DNA of 64,000 nt from Phycisphaerae bacterium (GTDB lineage Bacteria; Planctomycetota; Phycisphaerae; UBA1845). Positions within the stretch are counted from its first letter, which is position 1, and every line of letters begins with the position of its first letter. This document shows positions 21,706-47,588 of the stretch, piece by piece. A program made the translations under genes and the position numbers. The notes under the pieces were generated by a model. That model was not told the DNA's origin. It made no database searches and was given only the letters and a program-made list of their open reading frames with translations. The stretch lies in assembly GCA_029260215.1 (NCBI GenBank), contig JAJDDQ010000040.1, positions 1 through 64,000 of the forward strand, given 5' to 3'.

Positions 21706-21914
21706 ACTCCTGAAGGTCGCACGGCTCGTGATGATTTTCCCCATGTCGTCGCTCCTTTGTCTTGCAGGAGCCTCCGTTTGAATGCTCCCGCACCAGTTCT
21801 GCGTTGCCGCACACATGCGAACTTACGCCTGCTGTCTACCAATAGAACGTCGCCGCTGATTCGCGCGGACGTAAAAAAAGCAATCAGGGGTGGCCGCCGC
21901 GCTCGGGCGGGGGG

Positions 21915-26288: not shown

Positions 26289-26544
26289 AAAACTTTGCGG
26301 AGCGTGGGGTGTGGTATTTGGCGTTCCTTATTGTCCGGCCGCTCCATTACTGTCGCGGTTCTGATGGGCTGCAATCGTTCTGCCGGAAGTGTCGTGTACC
26401 CGAACTGGGGATGCGTTGCGTTGAGGCTTGACGTTTGGCCTGCGGCCCGGACAATGTTCGTTTTCGACCTTTTGGGTGCGGATTGTCGGTATTTGCGGAG
26501 GGTACGCGGGTTCCGTAATTCGCCCGGATTGAGATTTGGCTTGG

Positions 26545-27489: not shown

Positions 27490-27759
27490 GATAGACTTCG
27501 GAGTGCGGCTCGGTTGGCGCGCCGGGCGACACGCCGTCTCGAAGATTCCTAGTGCGCGGCTACACCCAATTGTGCGGGGCTCGCCAACCGCTCCCTCACG
27601 GTCGCGGCTCTGAAGGAGCGTGCGGAACCCGCAGGAAAAGGGGGGTCGCTGTACTTGGATGCTCGCGGGTGTTGCGGGCGAGGGAAATCCGTTGGAAACA
27701 AAACTACTTTGATTACGCAGTCAGCCGTTCAATTCGAGGCAGGAACAACCGGCAGGGTG

Positions 27760-29385: not shown

Positions 29386-32300
29386 GCAACGAGCTTCGAA
29401 CCGAACGTGAAAGCTACCGTCAGACACCCATCGCCATCGTCGGCATGGGGTGTCTGTTTCCGAATGCGCGTGATATTCGCGCATACTGGCGTCTGCTGCG
29501 ACGCTGCGAGGACGCGGTGCGTGAGGTTCCGCCGACGCATTGGCTGATGGATGATTATGTTCATCCGGACAAGGTGTCGGGTGATTTCACCTATTGCGGG
29601 CGGGGGGCGTTCCTGCCTTCGGTCGATTTTGATCCTACGGAATTCGGTATTCCGCCGACTGTGCTGGAGGCTACGGACACCGCACAGCTTTTGGCGTTGA
29701 AGGTGGCTAAGGCTGCGCTGTGTGATGCGGGGTATGGCGGTGATCGGGAGTTCGACCGTTCGCGTGCGAGCGTTTTGCTTGGTGTGACGGGCACGCAGGA
29801 GCTGGTTATTTCGCTTGGTGCGCGGATGGGGCATCCGTTCTGGCGGAAGGCGATGCTTGAGGCTGGCATCGATGCGGAGCGTGCGGAGTCGATCGTCGAT
29901 CGCATCGCGGACCAATATGTTTCGTGGCAGGAGAATTCATTTCCGGGATTGCTGGGGAATGTGGTGGCGGGCCGGATTGCGAACCGGCTTGATCTGCGCG
30001 GGACGAACTGCGTGGTGGACGCTGCTTGTGCGAGTTCTTTGAGTGCCGTACATCTGGCACTTATGGAATTGGCCGCCGGTCGGAGCGACATGGTTCTGAC
30101 CGGTGGTGTGGACGCGCTCAACGACATTTTCATGTACATGTGTTTCAGCAAGACGCAGGCGCTTTCGCCGACGGGTGATGCGCGTCCGTTTTCGGGCGAT
30201 GCGGACGGCACCGTGCTGGGTGAGGGCGTGGGTATGCTGGTGCTGAAGCGTCTGGACGACGCTCAGCGTGACGGCGACCGTGTTTACGCGACGATTCGCG
30301 GCGTGGGGACAGCCAGCGACGGTCGCTCGCAGAGCATTTACGCGCCGCGTGCGGGGGGGCAGGCTGACGCTTTGCGCGACGCTTACAAAGTGAGTGGTAT
30401 TGATCCATCCACGGTCGAGTTGGTCGAGGCCCACGGGACTGGGACCAAAGTCGGCGACGCTGTTGAATTCGAGGCCCTTAAAACGGTCTATCGCGAATCG
30501 CAATCCGAAGGCAAGTGGTGCGCGCTGGGATCGGTCAAGTCGCAGATCGGGCATACCAAAGCGGCGGCTGGTGTGGCGGGTTTGATTAAGGCTGCGTTGG
30601 CGGTGCATCACAAGGTGCTGCCCCCGACCTTGAAAGTGTCTCGTCCGAACGAGAGCATGGGCTTGGATGCGAGTCCGTTTTATCTCAATACGAACGCGAC
30701 ACCCTGGACGAAACATTCCGAGCATCCTCGACGTGCAGCCGTCAGTTCGTTCGGATTCGGCGGGAGCAATTTTCACGCGGTGGTCGAGGAAGCTCCGATC
30801 GAATGTGCTCAGCCTGCGTGGGACGGTTCGGTGATGCCGATCGCGTTTTCGGCTGACGCGCGCGAGGTTTTGCTGGAACAGGTGGCGGAGTGGATTGCGT
30901 TTGTTGCGGGCGACGCGCGTGAGGATCAGATTGCTCATCGTGCGTGCGTGTCGCGTCGGGGCTTTTCGGCTGATCTTGCCTATCGTCTCGTGGTTGTGGT
31001 TGAGAAGGGCGATGACGTTGCGGTTGTGCTCAAGGGTGCGCTGGAACTGGTGCGTTCGAGCAATGTCGATGCGGAATCCAGCGATGGGAATGTGTTCTAC
31101 GGTTGCGGCGTGAAGTCGCCCAAAGTTGCGTTCCTGTTTCCCGGTCAGGCTAGCCAATATGTGGGAATGGGTCGGGATTTGTTTTGCGTTTTCCCGGAGG
31201 CGCATCGGGCGATTGAAGAGTCAGACGCCGGTGTGGAATATGGCGATTCGCTGAGTGCGCGCATTTTCCCGCATGCGACATTCGACCGGGCGGAGCGTGC
31301 TCGGCAGGAGGCGGACCTTACGCGGACCGACGTTGCTCAGCCGGCCATCGGAACGGTGGCGTTGGCGGCGATGCGTGTGCTCGAACGGTTCGGAGTCAGG
31401 CCTGACATTTCGGCGGGTCACAGTTATGGGGAGCTGGTCGCGTTGCGGTCGGCTGGTCGTATCGACGACGCTGCTTTGCTCGCACTGTCTCGCGTGCGCG
31501 GGGCATTGATGGCGGATTCGACGGTTGCGCGTGGGGCGATGGCGGCTGTGTCCGCCCCTGTGGATGCTTTGCAGGAGATGGTGGATGACGCGGGGCTTGA
31601 CGTTGTGCTGGCGCATCGCAACACGCCGAAGCAGGGCGTATTGTCGGGGGCGCCGGAATCGATTGATGCTGCTTTGAAATGTTGCGCGCAGAAGGGTTGG
31701 CCTTCGACGCGGTTGAATGTATCCGGCGCGTTTCACAGCCCGTTGATGTCGAGTGCTCGGGATCGGTTCCGGGACGCGCTGGCGACGGTATCCATTGATG
31801 CCGGCGCCAGGCCTGTGTACGCCAATGCCACGAGTGAGGTTTTTCCCGACGATGCGGACGCGGTGCGCGATTCGCTGGCGAATCAGTTTGTGCAGCCCGT
31901 GGACTTTGTCGGGTTGGTTCGTCGTTTGCACGGGGAGGGCGTGACGCATTTCGTGGAGGTCGGCCCGAAGAATGTGCTGACGAAGCTGGTGCGGGCGATC
32001 CTTCCCGATATAGGTGCCAGGGTCGTGTCAGTTGACGTGGGGCAGAGTGGTTCCGGGCTGACGCAGTTGGCCCGTGTCTTGGGCGGCTTGGCTGTTGCGG
32101 GCTGTCATGTGAAACTCGATGAATGGGAACCGGACGTTCCCGAACCCCGTCAGCCGCGGATGGTCGTTCCGCTTGTGGGGGCCAACTACCGTAATCCGAA
32201 GAATCGCGTCAGTCGTGTGCAGGCCTGTGGGTCTGATCGGCTGACTCAGGAAACGAACACAGTGAAACGCAGTGTACCTACCAACGGCTCGGCGGCACCT

Positions 32301-35300
32301 GGGGCGTCGATTTCGGAGCCTCTCCATCCTGTGGCACAACATGTACGTCCGGCGTCTGCGGCGGCACCTTTGCAATCGTCGGTTGGCGGCGAGGTGCTGC
32401 AAGTTGTGCAGGAAGGGCTTCGTGCGATGCAGAAATTGCAGGAGCAGACAGCCGACGCGCACAAGCGATTCCTCGAAGGGCAGGAGCTGGCGCAGAAGAC
32501 GTTTCAGATGGTTCTGCAAGAGCAGCATCGCATCGTGCATCACACGATGGGTCATCCGGTTTCGCCGCCCGCTTATCCTGCGGTGGCGGCTCGTTCGCCG
32601 GAGACGTCGGTGTCCGATCCGAGCGGAGTGGTTGGGGCACGCGAGGCGTTGGTTGGGGCTGTGGCTGCGGCGGTGCCGCCGGTCGCGTCTGAAGGGAATG
32701 GTCATCTGGGGCGGGTTGAATCTGCGTTGCTGAAGGCTGTGTCGGAGACGACGGGTTATCCGATCGACTCGGTGCATCTTGATATGGATTTGGAGTCGGA
32801 CCTCGGAATTGACAGCGTTCGTCGAAACGCGCTGTTGGCTCGGTTGGGTGAGTATTATCCGCAGGCGGCTGCGATTGCACCGGATCAGTCGTATCGACTT
32901 ACGACACTGCGACAGATTGCCGAGCATGCTGCCAATGGCAATGGTCACGTGCCCGCGCATGTTGGCGGCAACGGAACTTCGCAGACGGAGGCTTCGGCTT
33001 CGCCTACACCTGCAACGGTGGATCAGGCGGAGTCGGGATCGGCTGAGCTGGCGCAGACATTGCTCGAAGTGGTTGCGCATCTGACCGGTTATCCGATTGA
33101 GATGCTCGATTGTGACATGGATATGGAGGCTGACCTCGGCATCGATTCGATCAAGCGTGTTGAGATTCTCGCGGAAGTGCAGACGCGCATGCCGGGTTTG
33201 AAGGAAGTCGACTCGTCGTACATGGGCAGTATGCGTACGCTGCGGAACATTATTGATTACCTTGACGAGCAGGAATCGCCGGGCGGTGCGGTTGGTGGAA
33301 ATGGTCACGTTCAGGCCGCACCGGCGACGCAGCCTCAGCCGGCGCAGGACCGGGAAGTTGCGGTGTCGCCTGTTCCGGTGGCGACATCGTTGGACCGCCG
33401 GGTGCTTCGTGTGAAGCCGTTGTCCGATCAGCCTGAAGCGGGCGTGTTGCCTTTGGCGAGCGGTCGTGAGGTTTTGATCGTGGGTGACGATGCGCTGGCG
33501 ACTGCGTTGCGGGATCGTCTTTCGGCTGACGGTGTGTCGGCGCGGCGTGCGTCCTGGAAATCTACGCGGAAGAAATCCAAGACGGAAATCGGCGGGTTGA
33601 TACTCGTTGCATCGGGTGCATCAACCGAGGCCGCTTCGGCCAAGGCTGGTTCAGCCGAGGCTTTGACGAAAATGCTCAAGGAGGCGTTCGCGGTTGCGAA
33701 GTCTTGTGGGGCGGATTTGTGCGAGGCTGCCGGTGAGGGCGGGGCGTTTCTTGCGACGGTCACGCGCATGGACGGTGCGTTCGGGCTTCGCGGTGGAGCG
33801 TTCGAGCCGCTGCAGGGCGGATTGGCTGGGTTGGCCAAGACGGTTGGGTGCGAGTGGTCTGAGGTTCGGGTGCGGGCGTTCGATGTTGATCCGCAATGGA
33901 AGAATGCGTCGGAAGCGGCTGATGCGATTGTTCGTACACTTGGAACCACGGGGCCGACAGAGATTGGTTTGTCAGCCGACGGGCGGTGCAGTCTGGAGCT
34001 TGCGGCGGGTGACGCTCCTTCCGGTGACATTGATCTGTCACAAGGCGATGTTGTTCTGGTTTCCGGCGGGGCGCGCGGTGTGACGGCTGAGGCTGTGATG
34101 TCGCTCGCGTCATTCAAGCCGGTGCTCGTGCTGTTTGGTCGTTCGCCTGAGCCTGAGGGTGAGCCGCAATGGTTGAGTGGTTTGACCGGTGAGGCGGAGA
34201 TCAAGCGGGCTGTCCTCGAACACGAATTCCGAGGGCAGGCTACGCCGACGGATGTGCGTACGTCTTACAATCGCATTATGGCTGGTCGGGAGATTCGACG
34301 GCAGATCGGTCGCATGGAGCGGGCTGGTGCGTCGGTTGTGTACCGGTCGCTGGACATTCGCGATGCGCGGGCGGTGCGGGCGGAGGTGGCTGACATTCGC
34401 GCGTCGTTCGGATCGCCGCGGATGCTGGTACACGGTGCGGGCGTGCTTCATGATCGGGCTATTTTGGACAAGACGCCCGAGCAATTTGATAACGTGTTCG
34501 ACACAAAAATCGTCGGGTTGTTGAACCTGCTCGACGCTACGAAAGATGACGATCTGCGGGCGATCGGGTTGTTTTCGTCCGTTAGCGGGCGTTTTGGGCG
34601 ACGGGGTCAAATCGACTACGCGATGGCCAACGAGTGCGTGAACAAGCTGGCCCGTCGTCTGGCTGCGGATCGTCCGAAGTGCCGCGTTGTGGCACTGAAC
34701 TGGGGGCCTTGGGATGGCGGCATGGTGGACGCGACGCTTCGTGCGGAATTTGAGCGTGAAGGGGTTGGGCTTATCCCGCTGGATGCGGGGTCGCGCGCTT
34801 TTGGTGCGGAACTCGCTCAACGTGCGTCGGGAGATGTTGAGGTTGTTTTGGGGGCTGGTTTCGATGGTCTGATGGATGGTGGTCTTGAAGACGATGTTCA
34901 GACACGGAGCGTGCCCGCTTTGCCGGTCGCGTACGAGCGACGTCTGGACCTTGATCGTCACGAATTTCTTCGCTCTCACGTGTTTGCGTCCAGGCCTGTG
35001 TTGCCGATCGCGGTTATGGTTGAGTGGTTGGGGCATGCTGCGCTGCACGATCATCCCGGTTTGATTCTCGCGGGGCTGGATGATTTTCGACTCTTTGGCG
35101 GCGTGGTGGTGGATCAGGCCGGTGTGGATTTGAGTTTCGCTGCCGGCAGGGTGCGTAAGACGGGTGACCTGTTCGAGGTTGACGTGGAGCTGGCCAGCGT
35201 TGACGTTGACGTGGAGCTGGCCAGCGTTGACGCGCCCACGCGGCGTACAGTGCATGCTCGGGCGACTGCGTTGCTCTCAAGTGTGTGTCGGCCTGCTGAC

Positions 35301-35804
35301 AACAGCCGTGCGGAACGGATCGAGGGCAATGGCGCGCCGATTCCGTCCGACCCGTACGATGCGATTCTTTTCCACGGGCCGCATTTTCATACCATTGAGC
35401 GCATTACCTGCATGTCGCGGGAAGGGATTGCTGCCCAGGTGCGTTCCGCTCCGTCGCCGTCGGCCTGGATGACCGATCCGCTGCGCAGTGAATGGCTTGG
35501 CGATCCCTTGGTCGTGGACGCCGCTTTGCAGTTGGGCATTGTTTGGGCGCATCAACATCTCGGAGCCGGTGCTTTGCCGAGCCGTATCGGGCGTATTCGT
35601 TTCTTCAGAAGTGTGTTTCCGGCGGAGGGTGTCTCCGTTGCTTTGCGCGTTGTGGATGCGTCGCGTCACGCATTGACCGCGGATGCTTCGATTCTGGACG
35701 CCGCAGGCGTACCGATCGCGCAGATCAGCCGATGTGTCTGGACGGTTGATCCGTCGCTGGCGGATGCGTTCTGTGAACGGAGCTTGGCTGGGGCGTCTTG
35801 CTGA
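29382..35804 (+). CDS. pfaA: PfaA-type megasynthase (KS-AT-ACP-ACP-KR-DH)
   Basis: 2140 residues. Ketosynthase about 14-460 (Cys216 in VDAACASSLSA, EAHGTGTKVGD, GSVKSQIGHTKAAAG). Acyltransferase about 580-900 (FLFPGQASQYVGMG, Ser681 in GHSYGE). Linker with a coiled part near 1010-1050. ACP1 with Ser1145 in LGIDSVRRN and ACP2 with Ser1256 in LGIDSIKRVEIL. Ketoreductase about 1555-1800 (SGGARGVTAEA, SSVSGRFGRRGQIDYAMAN), preceded by a structural pseudo-reductase. Dehydratase-like double hotdog from about 1855 (His1866 in SHVFASRPVLP, HxxxS instead of HxxxG). It builds and partly reduces the growing chain from malonyl units. Only two ACPs, fewer than in most PUFA synthases. Likely needs a 4'-phosphopantetheinyl transferase from elsewhere. 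Confidence 0.93.
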   Translation: MSNELRTERESYRQTPIAIVGMGCLFPNARDIRAYWRLLRRCEDAVREVPPTHWLMDDYVHPDKVSGDFTYCGRGAFLPSVDFDPTEFGIPPTVLEATDTAQLLALKVAKAALCDAGYGGDREFDRSRASVLLGVTGTQELVISLGARMGHPFWRKAMLEAGIDAERAESIVDRIADQYVSWQENSFPGLLGNVVAGRIANRLDLRGTNCVVDAACASSLSAVHLALMELAAGRSDMVLTGGVDALNDIFMYMCFSKTQALSPTGDARPFSGDADGTVLGEGVGMLVLKRLDDAQRDGDRVYATIRGVGTASDGRSQSIYAPRAGGQADALRDAYKVSGIDPSTVELVEAHGTGTKVGDAVEFEALKTVYRESQSEGKWCALGSVKSQIGHTKAAAGVAGLIKAALAVHHKVLPPTLKVSRPNESMGLDASPFYLNTNATPWTKHSEHPRRAAVSSFGFGGSNFHAVVEEAPIECAQPAWDGSVMPIAFSADAREVLLEQVAEWIAFVAGDAREDQIAHRACVSRRGFSADLAYRLVVVVEKGDDVAVVLKGALELVRSSNVDAESSDGNVFYGCGVKSPKVAFLFPGQASQYVGMGRDLFCVFPEAHRAIEESDAGVEYGDSLSARIFPHATFDRAERARQEADLTRTDVAQPAIGTVALAAMRVLERFGVRPDISAGHSYGELVALRSAGRIDDAALLALSRVRGALMADSTVARGAMAAVSAPVDALQEMVDDAGLDVVLAHRNTPKQGVLSGAPESIDAALKCCAQKGWPSTRLNVSGAFHSPLMSSARDRFRDALATVSIDAGARPVYANATSEVFPDDADAVRDSLANQFVQPVDFVGLVRRLHGEGVTHFVEVGPKNVLTKLVRAILPDIGARVVSVDVGQSGSGLTQLARVLGGLAVAGCHVKLDEWEPDVPEPRQPRMVVPLVGANYRNPKNRVSRVQACGSDRLTQETNTVKRSVPTNGSAAPGASISEPLHPVAQHVRPASAAAPLQSSVGGEVLQVVQEGLRAMQKLQEQTADAHKRFLEGQELAQKTFQMVLQEQHRIVHHTMGHPVSPPAYPAVAARSPETSVSDPSGVVGAREALVGAVAAAVPPVASEGNGHLGRVESALLKAVSETTGYPIDSVHLDMDLESDLGIDSVRRNALLARLGEYYPQAAAIAPDQSYRLTTLRQIAEHAANGNGHVPAHVGGNGTSQTEASASPTPATVDQAESGSAELAQTLLEVVAHLTGYPIEMLDCDMDMEADLGIDSIKRVEILAEVQTRMPGLKEVDSSYMGSMRTLRNIIDYLDEQESPGGAVGGNGHVQAAPATQPQPAQDREVAVSPVPVATSLDRRVLRVKPLSDQPEAGVLPLASGREVLIVGDDALATALRDRLSADGVSARRASWKSTRKKSKTEIGGLILVASGASTEAASAKAGSAEALTKMLKEAFAVAKSCGADLCEAAGEGGAFLATVTRMDGAFGLRGGAFEPLQGGLAGLAKTVGCEWSEVRVRAFDVDPQWKNASEAADAIVRTLGTTGPTEIGLSADGRCSLELAAGDAPSGDIDLSQGDVVLVSGGARGVTAEAVMSLASFKPVLVLFGRSPEPEGEPQWLSGLTGEAEIKRAVLEHEFRGQATPTDVRTSYNRIMAGREIRRQIGRMERAGASVVYRSLDIRDARAVRAEVADIRASFGSPRMLVHGAGVLHDRAILDKTPEQFDNVFDTKIVGLLNLLDATKDDDLRAIGLFSSVSGRFGRRGQIDYAMANECVNKLARRLAADRPKCRVVALNWGPWDGGMVDATLRAEFEREGVGLIPLDAGSRAFGAELAQRASGDVEVVLGAGFDGLMDGGLEDDVQTRSVPALPVAYERRLDLDRHEFLRSHVFASRPVLPIAVMVEWLGHAALHDHPGLILAGLDDFRLFGGVVVDQAGVDLSFAAGRVRKTGDLFEVDVELASVDVDVELASVDAPTRRTVHARATALLSSVCRPADNSRAERIEGNGAPIPSDPYDAILFHGPHFHTIERITCMSREGIAAQVRSAPSPSAWMTDPLRSEWLGDPLVVDAALQLGIVWAHQHLGAGALPSRIGRIRFFRSVFPAEGVSVALRVVDASRHALTADASILDAAGVPIAQISRCVWTVDPSLADAFCERSLAGASC
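35178..35231 (+). repeat. Perfect 27-bp tandem duplication inside pfaA
   Basis: Two identical 27-bp units (35178-35204 and 35205-35231), each encoding VDVELASVD, lie in the C-terminal dehydratase-like region. Because the copies are identical and in frame, the duplication is recent and adds nine residues. Confidence 0.95.
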
Positions 35805-35818
35805 ACGGGCGTAGATGA

Positions 35819-38800
35819 ATGGAGCACACACCGCCGATCGCCATCGTCGGCTTGGGCGGGCTTTTTCCCGACGCGCCCGATCCCGCAACCTTCCTGCGAA
35901 ACATTCTGCACGGTCATGATGCTTCGCGCCCCGTACCGGTTGGGCGGTGGGCGTTGGAACTGCCCGACGCCTACGAACCCGGGCCTGCGCACGACAAAGT
36001 TTATTCCGCCAAAGCGTGCCTCGTGGACGATTTTTCGTTCGATGCGCAGTATCTCCAACTTGCAGCCGGGGCGTTGGACGGGCTTGACCCGCTGTATCGC
36101 ATTGTTCTTCACGTGGGGCGGCAGGCGTTTCGCGACGCGGTCACGAAAAATCTCGATCTTGATCGCGTTGGTGTTGTCCTTGCGTCGATTGCGCTGCCCA
36201 CCGATGGATCCTCAGCCGTTACGCGCGAGGTGTATGGGCGGGCTTTTGAGCGGAAGCTCTTTGGACCGTCGGTGGGCGATGGGCAGCGGCTGAAGTCTTT
36301 ATCGTGTCCTGCCAATGCGCGGGTCACTTCGCTTCCCGCTTCGCTGCTGGCGCGTGCTTTGGGTTTGGGCGGCGGATCGTTCACGCTGGATGCCGCCTGT
36401 GCGTCGAGCTTTTACGCGATCAAGCTGGCTTGCGACGAGCTTCACGAGGGTAGGGCGGACGCGATGCTGGCGGGCGGTGTTTCGAGGCCTGATTCTTTGT
36501 TCACGCAGATGGGCTTTTCGCAATTGCGTGCGCTGTCGCCGAGCGGTGTCTGTCGGCCTTTTGATCGCGATGCCGATGGTTTGGTGGTCGGCGAAGGGGC
36601 GGGCATTTTTGTCTTGAAACGGTTGGACGACGCGCTACGCGACTGCGACGACATTCGCGGCTTGATTCGCGGGATCGGCTTGTCGAACGATGCAGCCGGG
36701 AGTTTGCTGGCGGCTGATGCGAGCGGTCAGCTTCGGGCGATGCGTTCTGCTTACGAGCGCGCCGGGTGGAAGCCGACGGATGTTGACCTGATTGAGTGCC
36801 ACGGAACCGGCACTCCACTGGGCGACGCGGCGGAGTTGAACAGTCTGCGTGCGTTGTGGGGTGCTACGGGCTGGACGCGCCGTGTTTGCCCGATCGGATC
36901 GGTGAAGTCGAACGTCGGGCATCTTCTGACGGCGGCGGGGGCAGCGGGGTTGGCCAAGACGCTGCTGGCGATGCGCGAGAAGGTACTGCCGCCGTCCATC
37001 AACTTTCAGACGCCGACCGAGGGGTCACCGCTTTTCGACGGGCCTTTTCGCGTTCAAACTGAGGCTGAAGATTGGTCACGGCGCGAAGCGGGGCAGCCGA
37101 GGCGTGCGGCGGTGAGCGGATTCGGATTCGGTGGTATTAACGCGCATCTTCTCATCGAGGAATTCGATGCGGACCTGCATCAGCCGGCGAAACGAAGCGT
37201 TCCGCGTGTGCCTGTGAATCGCGAGCGTCCCGATGTTGCCATTGTGGGTATGGACATCGCTATTGGGCAAAGCGTCACGTTAAGTCGTTTCGAGGAACTT
37301 GTTTTTTCTGGTGAGGCGTGGGGCGAGGATCGTCCGGCTGACAGATGGTTGGGTTGCGAGGACGTTGTCGAGGATGATCGACGTGGCGGCGCGTACATTG
37401 AGTCGGTCTCCGTACCGGCGGGCAAGTTTCGCCTGCCGCCGAATGAGATCGCGGAAGTTCTGCCGCAGCAATTGCTGATGCTTCAATCCGTGGCCCGGGC
37501 GATCGAGGACGCCGGGATCGACCCGCGTGCAGCGGCTGAGCGGACGGGTGTATTCATCGGCATGAGCCTGGACCTGAACACGACCAACTTTCATCATCGC
37601 TGGAACCTGCTGAACGAGGCTCGCCGGTGGAATGCAGAGCGTGGGCTTTGGCTGAACGAACAGGAACTGAACGAATGGGTTGCGCAACTGCGCGAAGCCT
37701 CCGGGCCTCCGTTGACGCCGGCGCGTGTGGTGGGGTCGCTGGGCAACATCATCGCGAGCCGTATCGCGCGGGAGTACGGATTTGGCGGGCCTGGGTATGC
37801 GATATCTTCCGAGGAGGGATCGGGTCTGCGTGCGCTTGAGATCGGCATGCGTGCGCTGCAGCGCGGCGAGCTGGACGTGGCTGTTGTGGGTGCGGTGGAC
37901 CTGCCGGGCGATGTGCGCAACGAATTGTCGCTGTGCGGAATTCGTGCGATGAGCGTCTCGGGCGAGGTTAGACCGTTCGACGCGAAGGCTTCGGGATCAG
38001 CTGTTGCGGAGGGAGTAGCCGCCGTAATTCTGCAGCGCGTGTCGGACGCGTGCGCGGCGCATCGATCTTCATACGCAGTGGTGGAGGGAATCGGCTTCGC
38101 GAGCGGATCGTCCGCCGATCGGCTGGACACTGAATCATCGCGGCGGGCGATGGGTCGCGGTCTTGGCGACGCGGGCGTGGACGCACGAGCGATCACGTAT
38201 CTCGAAACGAGCGGTTGCGGTGAACCGTTGGAAGACGCCGCGGAAATTGGCGCGTTGGCCGACGTTTTCGAGTGTCGCGCGGAAGCGCATCCAGTCTGTG
38301 CAATCGGCGCGCTGGCTGGGCATTGTGGTAACGCCGGTGCGGCTGCCGGACTGGCATCGGTGGTAAAGGCGTCGGTCAGCTTGGCCAATCGCGTGCTTCC
38401 CCCGTTGCGGGGATTCGTCGATGCAGCGGAACCGCAGGCATGGGGTCGCGGGCGTTTTTTCGCGCCGGAATCGGCACAGCACTGGATTCAAGATCGATCA
38501 GAAGGACCGCGTCGGGCGGGCGTACATTGCAGGACGTTGGACGGCGGTGCTGCCTTTGTCGTACTGCGCGACGCGGTGGAAGCCTCGACGCGCGCCGACT
38601 CTTCGTCACCCTGTCGCCGTGTTTCGCCCGTCGAGCGAGGCCAATCTGCGCAGACGCTTTTTGCGCTGACCGGACGTGACGCGAATGAGCTTTTGAGTGA
38701 ACTGGAACGACTTCGCCAACGCATCGATAAAGCGGATGATGTTGGCTCGCTCGCTCGTCGCTGGGATTCCGAGCGACGGGCCGATGCATCGCCGGCTTGC

Positions 38801-41800
38801 CTGCGTTTGGTTTTGCGATCGGAGCATCGCGATGATCTTCGCAAGGTGATCGAAGAGGCCGTCGCGACCGTAAGAAACAGTCAAAAATCCGCACTGACCG
38901 GCACGTCGGTTTATTATTCGAAGGAGCCCGAGTTCGCGGGCGAGCGTGTTGCGTTCGTTTTCCCTGGATCGGGAAGTCATTTCATCGGTATGGGCCGATC
39001 GTTGTTCGAACGTTGGCCTGAAGTGCTCGAACAACTCGACGGGGAGACCGAGCACCTTCGCAGCCAGATGCGCCCGGACCTGTACCAACCGCGTCGATTC
39101 TCCTGGCCTGCCGATTGGCGGGCGGATGCGGACGCGCTTATCCGTCGCGACCCGGTGGCGATGATTATGGGGCAGGTGGCGTGTTCGGTGGCCATGAATG
39201 ATTTGCTGGTGCATCTCGGCGTGAATCCGTCCAGTGTCATCGGCTACAGTTTGGGCGAGACGGCTGCGATGTTCGCGACTCGGGCCTGGCGCGATCGGGA
39301 CGATATGTTCCGGCGCATGCACGCATCGCCTTTGTTTCGCACTGAGCTTGCCGGCTCGTACGATGCGGTTGCGCGTTGTTGGCGTTTCGCAAACGATGAG
39401 CCTGTCGATTGGCGTGTCGTGGTGGTGAATCGGCCTGCCGGAGAGGTTCGGCGTGTGTTGGCTGGGCGCGAGCGCGTGTACCTGCTCATCGTCAACGCGC
39501 CGGATGAATGCGTGGTCGGCGGGCAGGGGCGTGTGGTGGACGAGGTCGTTCGGGCGCTTTCGTGTGAGGCCTTCCCGCTGGACGGCGCGTCGAGCGTTCA
39601 TTGCGAAATCGTGCATGAAGTGGCGGATTGCTATCGCGACCTGCATCTGTTGAATACGACGCCCGCCGCCGACATCGCTTACTACAGTTCAGCCGCTAGC
39701 AAGCGCATCCCGATCGATTGCGATTCAGCCGCTGAGTCGATTCTCAATCAGGCGTTGCACGGGTTCGACTTCACCAAGGTCGTCGAACAGGCTTGGCGGG
39801 ACGGCGTGCGTGTATTCGTCGAGCCGGGGCCTGGCGCGTCCTGCACCCGGATGATCGGCAAGATTCTGGCGGGCAAACCGCATTTGGCGCGGGCGGCGTG
39901 CATGCCGGGTGAAGATGACATCACAACCGTTCTATCGCTTCTCGCGAGGCTGTTTGTTGAAGGTGTTATCGACGACTTCGGACGCCTGTTCGATGGCGAC
40001 GATACGAACTTTTCGCCTCGCAAGACCTCGCGGGATACTTCCGCCGGTCACTGTATCGTCGTGCCCGTGGGCGGTCTGAATCCCAAGCCGAAGCGTCCCT
40101 TGAAGCGTTCTGCCGACGACCGCCCCAAGCCAATGACGATTCCGGCAGGGATCGCGCAATCCGCTGATTCGAGCGTGGCATCGGTGGCGGCGCCCGATGC
40201 GATGCTTATGAACGCGATTGCGGAAAGCGGCATCGCGACGGCTCGGGCGCACGACACGTTCCTGCGTGTTTCGCAACAGTCGCTGGCGGACATGGGTGAA
40301 GCCATTGCGTTGCAGGCGCGTCTTCTGGAATCGCACGACGCGCATGCATTGCGACTCGACGGGCGCGGTGACACGCCGCCCCGTGAAGCTGACAGCGGGC
40401 CGACGATCGACAAGGCGCGTCCGCTGTTCGACCGGGCGATGTGCATGGAGTTCGCCGTCGGATCGGTCGCGCGCGTATTGGGCCCGGAGTTCGCAGAGGT
40501 TGACGGGTACCCCGTGCGTGTTCGTTTGCCGGACGAGCCGTTGATGCTCGTGGACCGCATCCTCGAAATCGACGCCGAGGAGCGATCCCTAAAGGGCGGG
40601 TGCGTGGTGACCGAGCACGATGTGCTTGAAGGCGCGTGGTATCTCGACGGCCATCGGGCGCCGGTCTGCGTCACCGTCGAAGCAGGGCAGGCGGACCTTT
40701 TTCTGTGTTCCTATCTCGGCATCGACCTGGCTGTTAAGGGTACGCGCTCCTATCGATTGCTCGATGCGATTGTGGTTTTTCACCGTGGTCTGCCGCAGCC
40801 GGGGGAGACGATTCGATACGAAATCCACATCGATCGATTCGTAAAGCAAGGCGAGACGTACCTTTTCTTTTTCCGCTTCGAGGGCACGATCGACGGTCAG
40901 CCGATGATCTCGATGCGTGATGGTTGCGCGGGCTTTTTCACGGAGCAGGAAATCGCGGAATCGGGCGGTATCGTGCGGACGGCTGAGGATCGCGCTCCCA
41001 CCGCCGGCAAGCGTCCCGCCGACCTGCCCGAATTCGTGCCCGTATCTGTCGAAGCGTACGACGAGCGGGCGATCGATGCTTTGCGACGGGGGGAGTTGGC
41101 TGCTTGCTTTGGATCGTTGTTTGAAAATCTTCCGATCGAAAACCCGGTACGTCTTCCCGGCGGGCGCATGCGTCTGGTGCATCGCGTTGTGCAGCTTGAA
41201 CCAGTCGGCGGTCGTTTCGGTCTCGGCTGCATCCGTGCGGAGGCGGACATTCACAGCGACGACTGGTTCCTGACCTGCCACTTTCCGGACGACATGGTCA
41301 TGCCCGGCACGCTGATGTACGAATGCTGCGCGCATACGCTGCGCATCCTGCTGATGCGCATGGGCTGGGTGTGCGAGCACGAAAGCGTGTGCTACGAGCC
41401 GGTGGCTGGTGTGCCCGCGCGTCTGAAATGCAGGGGCCCGGTAACGCCCGAAACGCGGCTGGTTACATACGACGTCGAGATCAAGGAGATCGGTTTCAAT
41501 CCGCAGCCGTACGTGCTTGCGGACGCGCTGATGTACGCCGACGGCGACGATGAGCCGATCGTGCAATTCAAGGACATGCCGCTGCAAATGACCGGCGTGT
41601 TCCGCGAGACGTTCGCTCGCGTGTGGGATCACCGCAATCAACACGAGCCGAAATCGGAAGTGGCGTTGATCGGCGACGCACCGCTCGCAGACGACCCCGC
41701 ACCCGCTGTTTACGACAACGACCGGATTTTCGCGTTCGCCGTCGGCAGGCCGTCGGACGCGTTTGGCCAACCGTACAAGATTTTCGATTCCGGGCGACGC

Positions 41801-42862
41801 ATCGCGCGCCTGCCGGGGCCGCCTTACAAATTTCTCGACCGCATCACCCGCGTTCAGCCCGAACCGTGGAAGCTGACGCCCGGCGGCTGGATCGAAGCTC
41901 AATACGACGTGCCGCGTGACGCATGGTACTTCAACGCCAATCGCCAGATTTCCATGCCGTTCGGTGTGATTCTCGAAATCGCGCTTCAGCCCTGCGGGTG
42001 GCTGGCTGCTTATCTGGGGTCCGCGTTGCAGAGTGCCGTTGATCTGTCATTCCGCAATCTCGGCGGTGACGCCATTCTTCACGAAGAATTGAAGCCCGAC
42101 GCGGGCACGCTGACCACCCGTGTGCGCATGACCAAAGTGTCCCGGGCCGGCGGCATGATTATCGAGGCGTTCGACATGCAGATATGGCGTCAGGGACTGA
42201 TCGTCTACGACGGCGAAACCACGTTCGGATTCTTCACAGCCGAGGCGTTGGCGCAGCAGGTCGGCATTCGCGATGCACAGGAGCGCAGGCACGTTCCTTC
42301 CGGTGCGGAAATCGCACGGGCGATACCCGTTCACGTGAATCACGATGGCCCAACGACGCCGGACGCTGCCACAGAGATTTGCGAATCGCATCGCGTCAAG
42401 GGGCTAAAGCAACCCTCGACCGTGTTGCGCATGATCGACGAAGTCGAGCTGTTCATTCCCGACGGCGGACCGGCTGGGAAAGGTTTGATCCGCGGTATCA
42501 AGCGGGTCGACCCCGACGAGTGGTTCTTCAAAGCTCATTTTTATCAGGATCCGGTATGCCCCGGCTCGCTGGGTTTGGAGTCGTTTCTGCAACTTCTGAA
42601 GGTCGTCGCGGTCCATCGCTGGGGCGATAAGTTCGCCGAAACGCATCGCTTCGAGCCGATGGCCGTTGGCGCGAAACACCGTTGGCTGTACCGTGGCCAA
42701 GTTGTCCCCGGCAACCATCGCGTGGATGTCGAAGCCTTCATCACCGAAATCGTCGACGGCGACGAACCGCTGATTCGGGCCGACGGTTTCCTGCGCGTGG
42801 ACGGGGTTACGGTTTATGAAATGATTGATTTCACACTCCGGTTAGTGCCGGCCAACCGCTGA
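35819..42862 (+). CDS. pfaC: PfaC-type megasynthase (KS-CLF-AT-DH-DH)
   Basis: 2347 residues. Ketosynthase about 5-450 (Cys194 in LDAACASSFYA, ECHGTGTPLGD, SNVGHLLTAAG). Chain-length-factor-like second ketosynthase about 475-950, in which the active Cys is replaced by Glu (SSEEGSG, Glu665-666). Acyltransferase from about 1043 (VAFVFPGSGSHFIGMG, Ser1144 in GYSLGE). Then four hotdog units making two FabA-like dehydratases: LMLVDRILEID near 1570, CHFPDDMVMPGTLM (His1821), FLDRITRVQP near 2000 and AHFYQDPVCPGSLGLE (His2240). FabA-type units can place cis double bonds. The order equals myxobacterial Pfa3 but without its C-terminal AGPAT; the protein ends right after the last dehydratase. It is 14 bp from pfaA and 5 bp from oleA. 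Confidence 0.92.
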   Translation: MEHTPPIAIVGLGGLFPDAPDPATFLRNILHGHDASRPVPVGRWALELPDAYEPGPAHDKVYSAKACLVDDFSFDAQYLQLAAGALDGLDPLYRIVLHVGRQAFRDAVTKNLDLDRVGVVLASIALPTDGSSAVTREVYGRAFERKLFGPSVGDGQRLKSLSCPANARVTSLPASLLARALGLGGGSFTLDAACASSFYAIKLACDELHEGRADAMLAGGVSRPDSLFTQMGFSQLRALSPSGVCRPFDRDADGLVVGEGAGIFVLKRLDDALRDCDDIRGLIRGIGLSNDAAGSLLAADASGQLRAMRSAYERAGWKPTDVDLIECHGTGTPLGDAAELNSLRALWGATGWTRRVCPIGSVKSNVGHLLTAAGAAGLAKTLLAMREKVLPPSINFQTPTEGSPLFDGPFRVQTEAEDWSRREAGQPRRAAVSGFGFGGINAHLLIEEFDADLHQPAKRSVPRVPVNRERPDVAIVGMDIAIGQSVTLSRFEELVFSGEAWGEDRPADRWLGCEDVVEDDRRGGAYIESVSVPAGKFRLPPNEIAEVLPQQLLMLQSVARAIEDAGIDPRAAAERTGVFIGMSLDLNTTNFHHRWNLLNEARRWNAERGLWLNEQELNEWVAQLREASGPPLTPARVVGSLGNIIASRIAREYGFGGPGYAISSEEGSGLRALEIGMRALQRGELDVAVVGAVDLPGDVRNELSLCGIRAMSVSGEVRPFDAKASGSAVAEGVAAVILQRVSDACAAHRSSYAVVEGIGFASGSSADRLDTESSRRAMGRGLGDAGVDARAITYLETSGCGEPLEDAAEIGALADVFECRAEAHPVCAIGALAGHCGNAGAAAGLASVVKASVSLANRVLPPLRGFVDAAEPQAWGRGRFFAPESAQHWIQDRSEGPRRAGVHCRTLDGGAAFVVLRDAVEASTRADSSSPCRRVSPVERGQSAQTLFALTGRDANELLSELERLRQRIDKADDVGSLARRWDSERRADASPACLRLVLRSEHRDDLRKVIEEAVATVRNSQKSALTGTSVYYSKEPEFAGERVAFVFPGSGSHFIGMGRSLFERWPEVLEQLDGETEHLRSQMRPDLYQPRRFSWPADWRADADALIRRDPVAMIMGQVACSVAMNDLLVHLGVNPSSVIGYSLGETAAMFATRAWRDRDDMFRRMHASPLFRTELAGSYDAVARCWRFANDEPVDWRVVVVNRPAGEVRRVLAGRERVYLLIVNAPDECVVGGQGRVVDEVVRALSCEAFPLDGASSVHCEIVHEVADCYRDLHLLNTTPAADIAYYSSAASKRIPIDCDSAAESILNQALHGFDFTKVVEQAWRDGVRVFVEPGPGASCTRMIGKILAGKPHLARAACMPGEDDITTVLSLLARLFVEGVIDDFGRLFDGDDTNFSPRKTSRDTSAGHCIVVPVGGLNPKPKRPLKRSADDRPKPMTIPAGIAQSADSSVASVAAPDAMLMNAIAESGIATARAHDTFLRVSQQSLADMGEAIALQARLLESHDAHALRLDGRGDTPPREADSGPTIDKARPLFDRAMCMEFAVGSVARVLGPEFAEVDGYPVRVRLPDEPLMLVDRILEIDAEERSLKGGCVVTEHDVLEGAWYLDGHRAPVCVTVEAGQADLFLCSYLGIDLAVKGTRSYRLLDAIVVFHRGLPQPGETIRYEIHIDRFVKQGETYLFFFRFEGTIDGQPMISMRDGCAGFFTEQEIAESGGIVRTAEDRAPTAGKRPADLPEFVPVSVEAYDERAIDALRRGELAACFGSLFENLPIENPVRLPGGRMRLVHRVVQLEPVGGRFGLGCIRAEADIHSDDWFLTCHFPDDMVMPGTLMYECCAHTLRILLMRMGWVCEHESVCYEPVAGVPARLKCRGPVTPETRLVTYDVEIKEIGFNPQPYVLADALMYADGDDEPIVQFKDMPLQMTGVFRETFARVWDHRNQHEPKSEVALIGDAPLADDPAPAVYDNDRIFAFAVGRPSDAFGQPYKIFDSGRRIARLPGPPYKFLDRITRVQPEPWKLTPGGWIEAQYDVPRDAWYFNANRQISMPFGVILEIALQPCGWLAAYLGSALQSAVDLSFRNLGGDAILHEELKPDAGTLTTRVRMTKVSRAGGMIIEAFDMQIWRQGLIVYDGETTFGFFTAEALAQQVGIRDAQERRHVPSGAEIARAIPVHVNHDGPTTPDAATEICESHRVKGLKQPSTVLRMIDEVELFIPDGGPAGKGLIRGIKRVDPDEWFFKAHFYQDPVCPGSLGLESFLQLLKVVAVHRWGDKFAETHRFEPMAVGAKHRWLYRGQVVPGNHRVDVEAFITEIVDGDEPLIRADGFLRVDGVTVYEMIDFTLRLVPANR

Positions 42863-42867
42863 GATTC

Positions 42868-43908
42868 ATGCGTTACACGCGAGTATTCATCCAATCGATC
42901 GGGTACCAGCTCGCGCCCAATGTGGTGTCGACCGCCTCGCTGGAAGCGCGACTCGCGCCAGTCTACAAAGCGCTAAGAGTGCCGCCGAATCAGATCGAGC
43001 CATTGACCGGCGTGCGCGAACGACGCTACTGGGACGCAGGCCAGACGATGGCCGGCGGCGCTCTCAAGGCCGCCCGCAAGGCGCTCGAAACCGCCGATTT
43101 CGACCCGCACGATCTGGGCATGCTTCTGTATGCAGGCGTTTGCCGAGACAATCTCGAGCCGGCCACCGCGTGCGAAGTGGCGGACCGGTTGGACGTCCGA
43201 GGCCGAGCGATCGTTCACGATGTGTCCAACGCTTGTCTCGGGCTGATGAATTCCATTTTCCTCGTCGCCAACGCCATCGAGCTAGGCCAAATCAACGCGG
43301 GGTTGGTCGTTTCATGCGAATCCGCGCGGCAGATCGTCGACCTGACCATCGAACGCATGCTGCAAAAGTGCGACATGGAAACGTTCAAAGCGTCGATGGC
43401 TACCATGACCGGCGGATCGGGAGCCGCCGCCGTGCTGCTCGTCAACGAAACACTGGCCCGCGACGGGCATCGCGTGGCCGGCGGCGTGTTGCGCAGCGCC
43501 CCCGAGCATCACACGCTCAGTCGGTGGGGGCCTGATTCGGGCGTACCCACTAGCGGCCCGCAGATTATGGAGACCGACGCAGCCGCCACGTTGGACCACG
43601 GTGTGCGACTCGGCTGTGCGACGCATCGCGATTTCCTGGAAGAACTCGGCTGGCCCGCCCCCGGCCCTGATCGGGTCATCTGTCATCAGGTTGGTTCCGC
43701 GCATCGGCTGACCGTCCTGAAGGCAGTCGAAATTCCGATCGAGCGGGATTTTTGCACATTTGAGTATCTCGGTAACATCGGCACCGTATCGTTGCCGCTG
43801 ACCGCCGCAGTGGCCGACGAACGCGGGTTTCTAGAACGCGGGCAACGCGTCGGGTTTTTCGGAATCGGCAGCGGGTTGAATTGCCTGCTCCTTGGAATCG
43901 AGTGGTAG
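42868..43908 (+). CDS. oleA: OleA: head-to-head acyl condensing thiolase-fold enzyme
   Basis: Condenses two long acyl thioesters to a 2-alkyl-3-keto acid, the first step of long-chain olefin synthesis. The thiolase-fold protein has Cys123 in SNACLGLMN and Glu97 in VCRDNLEPATA; this Glu, 26 residues before the Cys, is the OleA-specific base and has the same spacing as Glu117/Cys143 of Xanthomonas OleA. That separates it from FabH. GGSGAAAVLL and IGSGLNCLLLGIEW close the fold. 346 residues, as expected. ATG start 5 bp after the pfaC stop, so probably supplied directly with acyl groups from the Pfa complex. Confidence 0.93.
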   Translation: MRYTRVFIQSIGYQLAPNVVSTASLEARLAPVYKALRVPPNQIEPLTGVRERRYWDAGQTMAGGALKAARKALETADFDPHDLGMLLYAGVCRDNLEPATACEVADRLDVRGRAIVHDVSNACLGLMNSIFLVANAIELGQINAGLVVSCESARQIVDLTIERMLQKCDMETFKASMATMTGGSGAAAVLLVNETLARDGHRVAGGVLRSAPEHHTLSRWGPDSGVPTSGPQIMETDAAATLDHGVRLGCATHRDFLEELGWPAPGPDRVICHQVGSAHRLTVLKAVEIPIERDFCTFEYLGNIGTVSLPLTAAVADERGFLERGQRVGFFGIGSGLNCLLLGIEW

Positions 43909-43918
43909 GAGGGCGCGC

Positions 43919-44851
43919 GTGACGTTCGATCTCTCCCCATATCGGCACCTTTATCCCTTCGAAAGTCGCTGGCTGAACATCGACGGCCAGCGCATGCACT
44001 ATGTTGACGAAGGCGCGGGCGAACCCATCCTCTTCGTCCACGGCAATCCGACATGGTCGTTCTTTTTCCGGCGATTGATCGTCGAACTGCGTAAGGATTA
44101 TCGCGTCATCGCGATGGACCACATCGGTTGCGGCCTGTCGGACAAGCCTGACGATCGCGCGTACAACCACACGCTCGCCCGCCGCGCCGCCGACCTCGAC
44201 GCACTTATCGACCACCTCGGGCTGACCACGTTCTCGATGGGCATGCACGATTGGGGCGGGATGATCGGCACAACCTCAGCCCTCCGCCATCTGCCCGCGA
44301 TACGCTCACTCGTTTACTTCAACACCGCCGCGTTCCTGCTGCCCGCGCCAAAACGCATGCCGCTGCGACTGTCGCTGATACGCAGCGTCCCGTTGATCGG
44401 CGCTCCGCTGGTGCTCGGCCTTAACGCATTCGCACGATCAGCCATAAACATGGCCGTAGTCAAAAAGCTCCCCCGCGACGTCGCAGCCGCCTATCTCGCG
44501 CCGTACGATCGCTGGTCGCATCGGCGGGCGGTGTTGCGATTCGTGCAGGACATCCCGCTCAAACCGGGCGACCAGGCATACGAAACCGTCAAACACGTGG
44601 ACGACAATCTGCACACATTGCAGGACATTCCGACATTTATCGCGTGGGGCGAACGTGATTTTGTGTTCGATCGTCATTTCCTGGACGAATGGCGAAAACG
44701 CCTGCCGCAAGCGTCCATCCACGCGTTCCCGGACGCCGGTCATTACGTGCTCGAAGACGCCGGCGACCAAATCGTGCCGTTGCTTCGCGACTTCCTTGCA
44801 CAGCATCATTATCGAGTGTCAGCCGTTGACACCGTCGAGGCTGCGTCATGA
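43919..44851 (+). CDS. oleB: OleB: beta-lactone decarboxylase (alpha/beta hydrolase)
   Basis: Converts cis-beta-lactone to cis-olefin and CO2. Haloalkane-dehalogenase-like alpha/beta hydrolase: HGNPTWSFFF oxyanion region, nucleophile Asp111 in HDWGG, GCGLSDKP, and catalytic His in DAGHYVLED near the end. Start GTG 43919 is chosen because TAGGAGGG lies just upstream; a frame opening at TTG 43892 would extend into oleA. 310 residues. Its stop overlaps the oleC start (ATGA). Confidence 0.92.
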   Translation: MTFDLSPYRHLYPFESRWLNIDGQRMHYVDEGAGEPILFVHGNPTWSFFFRRLIVELRKDYRVIAMDHIGCGLSDKPDDRAYNHTLARRAADLDALIDHLGLTTFSMGMHDWGGMIGTTSALRHLPAIRSLVYFNTAAFLLPAPKRMPLRLSLIRSVPLIGAPLVLGLNAFARSAINMAVVKKLPRDVAAAYLAPYDRWSHRRAVLRFVQDIPLKPGDQAYETVKHVDDNLHTLQDIPTFIAWGERDFVFDRHFLDEWRKRLPQASIHAFPDAGHYVLEDAGDQIVPLLRDFLAQHHYRVSAVDTVEAAS

Positions 44852-46533
44852 TCGCGCCCACCGCGCCGGCTCAGCCCGTGGTAAAGTTGCGTGAGCGCGT
44901 GAATATCGTCGATCGCGTGACGGAAATGGCTGCACGCTTCCCGAAAAAGCACGCCGTCGTCTGGCCCGTCTCGCGACGAGGTCGTGAAGTTCGCTACCAG
45001 AGCGTCACCTTCGCGGAATTGATCGAAGAAATCGACGCATGCGCGCGAGGCCTGCGTTCGATCGGCGTCGCGAGAGGCCATCGGTGTGTCGTATTCGTGA
45101 AACCCGGGCTGGATTTCTTCGCCATCGTTTTCGCATTGTTCAAGCTGGGGGCTGTCCCCGTACTCATCGATCCCGGAATCGGCAAACAGCAGATGCGCGC
45201 CAGTTTGGCCGAAGTCGAATCCGACGCGTTCATCGGCGTACCCATCGCGCACGTGTTTCGCAAGCTCTATCCGCAGGCCTTCCGCAAACTCCGCGCCACG
45301 GTAACGGTAGGGCGACGCTGGTTCTGGGGCGGTCATCGCCTACGCGACATTCGCCGCAAAAAAGGACCGCCGATCGCAACCGAACCGACCCGCGCCGAAG
45401 ACGTAGCCGCAATCCTGTTCACCAGCGGCAGCACCGGGCCGGCCAAAGGCGTGATCTACACACACGGCGTGTTCGATGCACAGATACGATCCCTCCGCGA
45501 CCACTTCGGCTTCTCCGAGTCGGAAAAAGACCTGCCGACCTTTCCGCTTTTCGCACTTTTCGACGCAGCCCTCGGCATGACAGCCGTTCTGCCAGATATG
45601 GATTTCACCAAGCCGGGTTCCGTCGATCCGCGACGCATCATCGAACCGATTATCGAATTCAAAATCACGCATATGTTCGGCTCGCCCGCTTTGCTCGATC
45701 GCGTCAGCCGCTACGGTGTGGAAACAGGCGCGAAGCTGCCGACCTTGCGACGCGTCATCACCGCCGGCGCACCCGTCAGTCCGGATATCCTCGAACGGAT
45801 GCACGGCATGCTGTCACGCGATGCGGAAATACTCACACCCTACGGCGCCACCGAGTGCCTGCCCGTGGCATCGATCGGCAGCCGCGAAATCCTGGCCGAA
45901 ACCCGTTCTGTGACAGCCGCCGGCGGTGGCACCTGCGTAGGCAAACCCATGCCGGAACTTACCGTCCGCGTGATCTCCATAAGCGACGACCCCATCGAAG
46001 AGTGGAACGACCAGATAACGTTGCCCACCGGCCGCATCGGCGAAATCGTTGTCAAGGGTGATGTCGCAACGCGCGCCTACCATCATCGCCCCGATGCCAC
46101 ACGCGCCGCCAAGATTCGCGACGGTGACGACGTCTGGCACCGCATGGGCGACGTCGGATACTTCGATGAAACCGGCCGACTCTGGTTCTGCGGTCGAAAG
46201 GCACACCGGGTCATCACACGCGACGAAACGCTTTTCACCGTGCCCTGCGAAGCGATCTTCAACCAACACCCCGCTGTGTTACGCAGCGCGCTCGTAGGCC
46301 TCAGTACGGGCAACGAACAACAGCCGGTAATCTGCATCGAATTGGAAGCGTCGAGCAGGAACGCGAACCGCGACGACCTCGCGCGCGAGTTGCTGACGCT
46401 CGCCCGCACCAGCAAGCTCACCGCCAACATCCGTCGCGTCTTGTTTCACCCCGCATTCCCCGTGGACGTGCGACACAATTCCAAAATCTTCCGGGAAAAA
46501 CTGGCGATCTGGGCCGCAAGGCAACCGTTTTGA
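44848..46533 (+). CDS. oleC: OleC: beta-lactone synthetase (AMP-forming)
   Basis: Activates a 2-alkyl-3-hydroxy acid with ATP and closes it to a beta-lactone. 561-residue ANL-superfamily enzyme: P-loop FTSGSTGPAKGVIYTH near 191, FPLFALFDAALGM, TPYGATECLPVA, a GDVGYFDETGRLWFCGRKAHRV hinge region spread over the C-terminal third, and the RHNSKIFREKLA Lys near the end. The long divergent N-terminal part matches OleC rather than acyl-CoA ligases. Coupled to oleB by ATGA and to oleD by TTGA. Confidence 0.92.
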   Translation: MIAPTAPAQPVVKLRERVNIVDRVTEMAARFPKKHAVVWPVSRRGREVRYQSVTFAELIEEIDACARGLRSIGVARGHRCVVFVKPGLDFFAIVFALFKLGAVPVLIDPGIGKQQMRASLAEVESDAFIGVPIAHVFRKLYPQAFRKLRATVTVGRRWFWGGHRLRDIRRKKGPPIATEPTRAEDVAAILFTSGSTGPAKGVIYTHGVFDAQIRSLRDHFGFSESEKDLPTFPLFALFDAALGMTAVLPDMDFTKPGSVDPRRIIEPIIEFKITHMFGSPALLDRVSRYGVETGAKLPTLRRVITAGAPVSPDILERMHGMLSRDAEILTPYGATECLPVASIGSREILAETRSVTAAGGGTCVGKPMPELTVRVISISDDPIEEWNDQITLPTGRIGEIVVKGDVATRAYHHRPDATRAAKIRDGDDVWHRMGDVGYFDETGRLWFCGRKAHRVITRDETLFTVPCEAIFNQHPAVLRSALVGLSTGNEQQPVICIELEASSRNANRDDLARELLTLARTSKLTANIRRVLFHPAFPVDVRHNSKIFREKLAIWAARQPF

Positions 46534-47588
46534 ACGATGATTCCCACTATCGTCACACGCCCGAGCGCGCTCTCGTAACCGGCGGCAGCGGCTTCCTCGG
46601 TCGAGCGACCATAGAAAAATTGCTCGAACGCGGCGACCACGTCAGGAGCCTGCACAGAGGCCATTATCCCGAGCTGGAAGACATGGGCGTCGAAGTGATC
46701 CGAGGCGACGTCCGCGATGCCTCCGTGGTGCGAAAAGCCGCCGAGGATTGCGATGTCGTCTACCACGTCGCCGCCAAGTCGGGCTTCTGGGGTGCCTACC
46801 GCGAATACCACGAAACAAATGTGCAGGGCACGCACAACGTGCTGAACGCATGCAAAGAAAACGGCGTCGGACGACTGGTCTACACGAGTTCGCCCAGCGT
46901 TTTGTTCCACGGCGGCGACATGCAGGGTGTGGACGAATCCGCACCCTACCCGAGGCGATTCATCTCAAACTATTCCGCCACCAAAGCCAAAGCGGAACAA
47001 GCTGTGCTGGCCGCGAATTCCGCCGATTTGAAGACTATCGCACTCAGGCCGCACCTCATCTGGGGCCCGCGTGACAACCACATCGTGCCGCGCTTTATCG
47101 CACAAGGGGCAGCCGGTAAACTCCGCTGTCTCGGCGACGGCCAAAATCTCGTTGACGTAACCTACATCGACAACGCAGCCGATGCTCAAACGCTGGCTGC
47201 GGACGCATTGAGCACCAACCCAAACGCAGCCGGCCGAGCGTTTTTCATCAGCCAGGGCGAACCGATCAAACTCTGGGACATCATCAACGGCATCCTCGCT
47301 GCCGCCGGTGTGCCGCCGGTCAACCGTTCCCTGCCCCGCGCAGTAGGATGGACCGCCGGGGCCGTCCTGGAAATGGCCTACAAAGTTCTTCGTTTACCGG
47401 GCGAGCCGCGTATGACGCGCTTCGTCGCCAACGTGCTCTACACCCACCACTGGTTCGATATTTCCGCTGCCCGCCGCGAACTTGGATACCAGCCGCGCGT
47501 CACAGTGGAACAAGGGCTTGAACGTCTTGAGACATGGCTCCGCAAAACCGGCCGATATCTCGGCAATCGCCGAAATATCAACCAGTGA
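46530..47588 (+). CDS. oleD: OleD: 2-alkyl-3-ketoacid reductase
   Basis: NAD(P)H-dependent reductase of the 3-beta-HSD/extended SDR family, reducing the OleA product to the beta-hydroxy acid. VTGGSGFLGRATIEKLLERG at the N-terminus, YHVAAKSGFWG, TSSPSVLF and catalytic Tyr148/Lys152 in YSATKAKAE. 352 residues. The start is TTG at 46530, overlapping the oleC stop by four nt; no ATG lies nearby. Last gene of the pfa-ole group. A family D palindrome follows 18 bp downstream and the next gene is convergent. Confidence 0.92.
   Translation: MNDDSHYRHTPERALVTGGSGFLGRATIEKLLERGDHVRSLHRGHYPELEDMGVEVIRGDVRDASVVRKAAEDCDVVYHVAAKSGFWGAYREYHETNVQGTHNVLNACKENGVGRLVYTSSPSVLFHGGDMQGVDESAPYPRRFISNYSATKAKAEQAVLAANSADLKTIALRPHLIWGPRDNHIVPRFIAQGAAGKLRCLGDGQNLVDVTYIDNAADAQTLAADALSTNPNAAGRAFFISQGEPIKLWDIINGILAAAGVPPVNRSLPRAVGWTAGAVLEMAYKVLRLPGEPRMTRFVANVLYTHHWFDISAARRELGYQPRVTVEQGLERLETWLRKTGRYLGNRRNINQ

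Follow-up and report, generated by a model that had tools for sequence, protein, structure and literature searches.

How does a polyunsaturated acyl chain leave its synthase when the last synthase protein ends without an acylglycerolphosphate acyltransferase (AGPAT) and the gene for a condensing enzyme, OleA, begins almost immediately afterwards? This question is raised by a locus on contig JAJDDQ010000040.1 of a Phycisphaerae bacterium (GCA_029260215.1), in a 64,000-nucleotide stretch of DNA referred to here as the window. An initial annotation of the window proposed that OleA takes the chain straight from the acyl carrier protein (ACP) and is therefore the off-loading enzyme.

The operon and its proposed product

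Open reading frames and family profiles delimit seven genes, pfaD-pfaA-pfaC-oleA-oleB-oleC-oleD, that form one operon on the plus strand at 27655–47588 (Table 1). Intergenic spacings range from −17 to +14 bp, and pfaD and pfaA overlap by 4 bp. The TTG start of pfaD is given as listed, and the real start may lie further downstream. PfaC carries two ketosynthase domains, the second of which is missing the active-site cysteine and is a chain-length factor (CLF). OleC also scores against the olefin beta-lactone synthetase models NF045786 and NF045785 (646 and 584 bits), under their cut-offs of 900 and 850. Nearby, ispH/lytB lies on the same strand at 26536–27489, 165 bp 5' of pfaD, and an exosortase-type locus encoding an exosortase (PF09721), a DUF3485 protein and an epimerase occupies 17967–21816 on the minus strand.

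Table 1. Features of the pfa–ole operon, in window coordinates
Feature	Position	Strand	Evidence
pfaD, trans-acting enoyl reductase	27655–29385	+	TIGR02814, 630 bits (cut-off 449)
pfaA, KS-MAT-ACP-ACP-KR-DH (PKS type), 2140 aa	29382–35804	+	TIGR02813, 1434 bits (cut-off 1010); Pfam KS, AT, PP-binding, KR, PS-DH
Two PfaA ACP phosphopantetheine motifs, LGIDSV (32802–32819) and LGIDSI (33135–33152)	32802–33152	+	Motif scan; PF00550, two stretches
pfaC, PfaB+PfaC fusion, KS-CLF-AT-DH-DH, 2347 aa, one ORF, without AGPAT	35819–42862	+	Pfam, NCBIfam
PfaB-type AT domain inside PfaC, GYSLG nucleophile motif and conserved His	38954–39868	+	PF00698, TIGR02816
Final FabA-type unit of PfaC	42413–42823	+	PF07977, residues 2199–2335
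Gap between pfaC stop and oleA start, GATTC, 5 bp	42863–42867	+	Sequence
oleA, thiolase-fold non-decarboxylative Claisen condensing enzyme	42868–43908	+	NF006720, PDB 3ROW, fold search, alignments
oleB, alpha/beta hydrolase (Ole-pathway beta-lactone decarboxylase)	43892–44851	+	PF00561; haloalkane-dehalogenase-like NCBIfam below cut-off; operon position
oleC, beta-lactone synthetase	44848–46533	+	NF006754, 731.7 bits (cut-off 478)
oleD, 2-alkyl-3-oxoalkanoate reductase	46530–47588	+	NF042422/NF042423, 417/406 bits, under cut-offs of 580

The seven genes very probably constitute a single-operon pathway to a polyunsaturated hydrocarbon. PfaD, PfaA and PfaC would assemble a polyunsaturated acyl chain in repeated cycles on the two ACPs of PfaA, the presumed chain donors to OleA. 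OleA, probably co-translated with PfaC, would bind the loaded ACPs, accept a first chain on Cys123 and condense it with a second, with release of a beta-keto acid. OleD would reduce this acid, OleC would then form a beta-lactone, and OleB would decarboxylate the lactone to a very long polyene hydrocarbon. Chain length and product are inferred by analogy, the product probably being C31:9, as in Geobacter. In this scheme, OleA would be the main off-loading enzyme, and neither an AGPAT nor a thioesterase would be necessary. A PfaE/Sfp-type phosphopantetheinyl transferase to charge the PfaA ACPs was not found in the host genome, which is 97% complete; the sole PF01648 match there (L006) looks AcpS-like.

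The end of PfaC and its surroundings in other genomes

The boundary between pfaC and oleA is as first described. PfaC stops after its last FabA-like unit, with 12 residues left beyond residue 2335, and a Pfam scan of the 2347-residue ORF gives no match to the PF01553 acyltransferase family. The TGA stop of pfaC (42860–42862) is followed by the 5-bp gap and by the oleA ATG at 42868, and family profiles identify no thioesterase domain in the seven genes. A C-terminal AGPAT is, however, a distinctive feature of myxobacterial Pfa3 (PMC4882568, PMC9702510), and because the tail is particular to that protein, other Pfa systems are without it whether or not ole genes adjoin. The AGPAT-free end is the usual state rather than a loss peculiar to this PfaC, and the absence of an AGPAT is by itself no pointer to OleA as the off-loader.

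The arrangement of pfaC and oleA is widespread. When 392 genomes of the phylum Planctomycetota were searched with the C-terminal 447 residues of PfaC, 52 proved to have this end, and 53 loci were fetched. At 38 of the 53, oleA lies downstream on the same strand and PfaC is AGPAT-free; same-strand oleA is no more than 160 bp away at 36, with 22 overlapping the pfaC stop. At one locus oleA lies on the other strand; four loci carry a tail of 683–804 residues and no oleA within the fetched stretch, seven are untailed with no oleA within that stretch (some at contig ends), and three are missing the PfaC end. At the untailed locus L067, oleA lies about 24 kb farther along. Named genomes were scanned with an alignment of OleA sequences, and the 80 best-scoring of at least 584 matches, which are not a random sample, were taken; 66 of these 80 loci have an AGPAT-free PfaC upstream of oleA, at a distance of 460 bp or less in 64. 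These records derive from Planctomycetota, Desulfobacterota and Geobacter relatives, Elusimicrobia, Acidobacteria, Gamma- and Betaproteobacteria, Sumerlaea and KSB3, and a few genomes are shared between the phylum set (38 loci) and the named set (66 loci).

Co-occurrence extends to whole genomes. Among the 392 planctomycete genomes, 46 encode both PfaC and OleA (at least 45% identity), six encode PfaC only, six have OleA without a PfaC match and 334 have neither (Fisher p about 1e-46, kinship ignored), so the association is not due to chance. Ten of 11 genomes whose OleA is not beside PfaC have a PfaC elsewhere, and none of the nine readable ends is AGPAT-tailed. Among those 80 best matches in named genomes, out of at least 584, the closest OleA (L092, from a Phycisphaerae MAG, 73% identity) is encoded in an oleABC set that adjoins a UvrC-like gene, apart from pfaC; physical linkage is therefore not required. 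A PfaC–OleA fusion was sought as proof of transfer; none of the 104 loci where PfaC precedes oleA, a set in which a few genomes appear twice, has one.

AGPAT-like PfaC tails resembling that of Minicystis Pfa3 occur outside Myxococcota, in four Planctomycetota genomes (loci L065, L066, L068 and L083 in G052, G005, G081 and G071, respectively), where PfaC ends in PS-DH and AGPAT-like regions. The three tails scanned all match PF01553 above cut-off and PS-DH weakly, and the fourth (L068) shows the same motifs by eye. OleA genes adjoin none of the four tailed loci versus 39 of 43 untailed loci, the latter being those judged readable in a manual count (p 4e-4). The tailed PfaCs fall in a single six-member clade (support 0.54), in which one member is untailed and one is cut by a contig end, and they possibly go back to a single event. 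G071 encodes one tailed and one OleA-linked PfaC. The AGPAT tail and OleA are not exclusive within a genome, because G052 and G081 combine a tailed PfaC with an unlinked OleA. Exclusivity was thus rejected as strong evidence: it is true locally, but the tailed PfaCs are one small clade, and OleA is encoded elsewhere in two of their genomes.

The separation of AGPAT and OleA between loci fits alternative exits for the chain, which is suggestive rather than proof. An extended proposal is that OleA replaces AGPAT as the obligate, dedicated off-loader in this Pfa lineage and docks the PfaA ACPs by means of a surface specific to its subfamily; tailed (phospholipid) and OleA-coupled (hydrocarbon) forms would then be two alternative exits from one machine. 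This proposal is tentative and, on balance, doubtful.

OleA and the routes of chain release

The OleA encoded here has a full-length match to NF006720 (441 bits, cut-off 285) and matches Xanthomonas campestris OleA in the PDB with an E-value of 2e-52. Its AlphaFold model has a pLDDT of 92 and a TM-score of 0.94 to 6b2s, also X. campestris OleA. Alignments indicate that the thiolase-fold catalytic residues Glu97, Cys123, His273 and Asn303 are all kept, and they are conserved among 120 aligned sequences with one exception at the Asn. Phylogenetic analysis places all 105 Pfa-linked OleAs in one clade that includes none of 28 OleAs from planctomycete genomes without a detected PfaC; the whole clade has a support of 0.62, and a 111-member node inside it one of 0.98. 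Many planctomycetes have a second OleA subfamily that is less closely related (about 35–45% identity; L198–L217), without any PfaC match and often with no oleBCD nearby.

A FabH-like ACP docking patch was considered as a possible mark of the Pfa-linked OleAs and rejected. The position of the FabH docking residue Arg249 is Ala278 in this OleA, and the alignment gives no equivalent of Arg249 in Pfa-linked or Pfa-free OleAs. The equivalent of FabH Lys256 is kept in part only, other charge differences run both ways, and the Pfa-linked proteins have no consistent extra positive patch relative to Pfa-free OleAs. The sequence itself favours neither ACP nor CoA as the substrate of OleA.

Published work carries more of the argument. 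In work by Allemann, Shulse and Allen (2019), an E. coli fadD mutant that expressed oleA together with pfaA-E yielded the 31:8 ketone; EPA fell equally with the catalytically dead OleA C123A, and the in vivo substrate of Shewanella pealeana OleA was concluded to be acyl-ACP (PMC6463001). A patent cited in that study describes acyl-ACP use in vitro (PMC6463001). Use of ACP-bound chains, which the initial annotation considered new, had therefore already been proposed from co-expression. Chiefly by way of this in vivo work, rather than through any feature peculiar to the window, direct transfer from the PfaA ACPs to OleA is the best-supported model and a plausible one, and the conserved pfaC–oleA coupling agrees with it. 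We infer that the donor is ACP, not CoA, and regard direct transfer as fairly likely, even though no FabH-like docking patch sets the Pfa-linked OleAs apart and PfaC itself provides a live rival.

That rival, overlooked when OleA was taken for the only possible off-loader, is the PfaB-type AT domain within PfaC, the chief competing candidate and one that could act by itself. The AT would move the finished chain from the PfaA ACP to water, CoA or the FAS ACP, leaving OleA to use a secondary thioester. Its best PDB match is PfaB (9RY8, E 4e-24), with the GYS motif and His aligned, and the Ser is present in all 89 alignable homologues and the His in 88 of them (one further homologue was not aligned). 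A published account treats PfaB as a terminal acyltransferase and suggests that it off-loads to a soluble ACP (PMC12895367), and thraustochytrid AT domains release free acid (PMC9702510). However, a PfaB route to acyl-CoA lacks demonstration, and the fadD mutant with OleA still gave ketone, so that FadD-reactivated free acid was unnecessary there (PMC6463001). Off-loading by the AT is rated unlikely. It is quite unlikely that the synthase mainly makes membrane PUFA, with free-standing AGPATs (PlsC) loading phospholipid and OleA as a side branch. Two PF01553 proteins are encoded elsewhere in the host genome, and strains of Shewanella and Photobacterium produce EPA as well as C31:9 (PMC6463001), but the tight pfaC–oleA coupling and the rarity of this type of PfaC without OleA argue for hydrocarbon as the main product. 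One of the two PF01553 acyltransferases (L001) shares its frame, of at least 696 residues, with an AMP-ligase-like region and an ACP-like LGVDSL motif.

A thioesterase and an acyl-CoA ligase encoded elsewhere might instead release and reactivate the chain, with OleA using acyl-CoA as in X. campestris, whose enzyme has been crystallised with myristoyl-CoA (PDB 4KU2, 4KU3). The host genome does encode two hot-dog thioesterases, but both are unlinked to the operon, and their solved relatives are YbgC-like, with no entry named Orf6 or PfaT among the matches listed; neither was retained as a dedicated thioesterase. PfaT is also dispensable in Shewanella and Photobacterium, where it is viewed as a type II editing enzyme (PMC6463001), and the route costs ATP. 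It is considered highly improbable.

Relation to known Pfa and Ole systems

Both the operon layout and the idea of acyl-ACP delivery to OleA are already published. With pfaD, pfaA, a fused pfaBC (the PfaB-type AT lying in PfaC) and oleABCD directly downstream, the locus resembles Type I Pfa clusters with linked ole genes in gene content and order. Such clusters with fused pfaBC are known from Geobacter relatives and Gemmata, often with linked ole genes (PMC3098273), and loci homologous to this operon were found in Geobacter relatives and planctomycetes. The closest parallel is Geobacter bemidjiensis, in which a tandem pfaD-A-B-C-oleA-B-C-D-pfaE cluster accompanies C31:9 production (PMC4882568). 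Gene order is the same as in that cluster and in the Type I secondary lipid synthase (PMC3098273), with one protein combining the activities of PfaB and PfaC and with oleABCD next; the Phycisphaerae locus differs in belonging to another phylum and in having no pfaE directly after oleD.

In Shewanella and Photobacterium, pfaABCDE and oleABCD likewise supply a Pfa chain that OleA condenses to a polyunsaturated hydrocarbon, and direct ACP–OleA transfer was proposed there (PMC6463001); however, PfaB and PfaC are separate proteins, EPA is also made, and in P. profundum the thioesterase gene pfaT lies between the pfa and ole operons. The myxobacterial pfa1-pfa2-pfa3 systems (PMC6731297, PMC4882568) share the order ER, KS-MAT-ACP-KR-DH and KS-CLF-AT-DH-DH, but Pfa3 ends in an AGPAT presumed to load phospholipid, whereas ole genes stand in the corresponding place here. 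OleA of X. campestris (PDB 3ROW, 4KTI) has the same fold (TM 0.93–0.94) and the same Cys/His/Asn/Glu catalytic residues, though it is 33% identical to the present protein and was solved with acyl-CoA. The locus adds a Phycisphaerae-type planctomycete to the known carriers of the Pfa–Ole hydrocarbon operon, and the survey documents the wide spread of this layout. Within Planctomycetota, loci where PfaC is AGPAT-tailed and loci where oleA follows pfaC, with one genome containing both, offer a natural comparison for product release from PUFA synthases.
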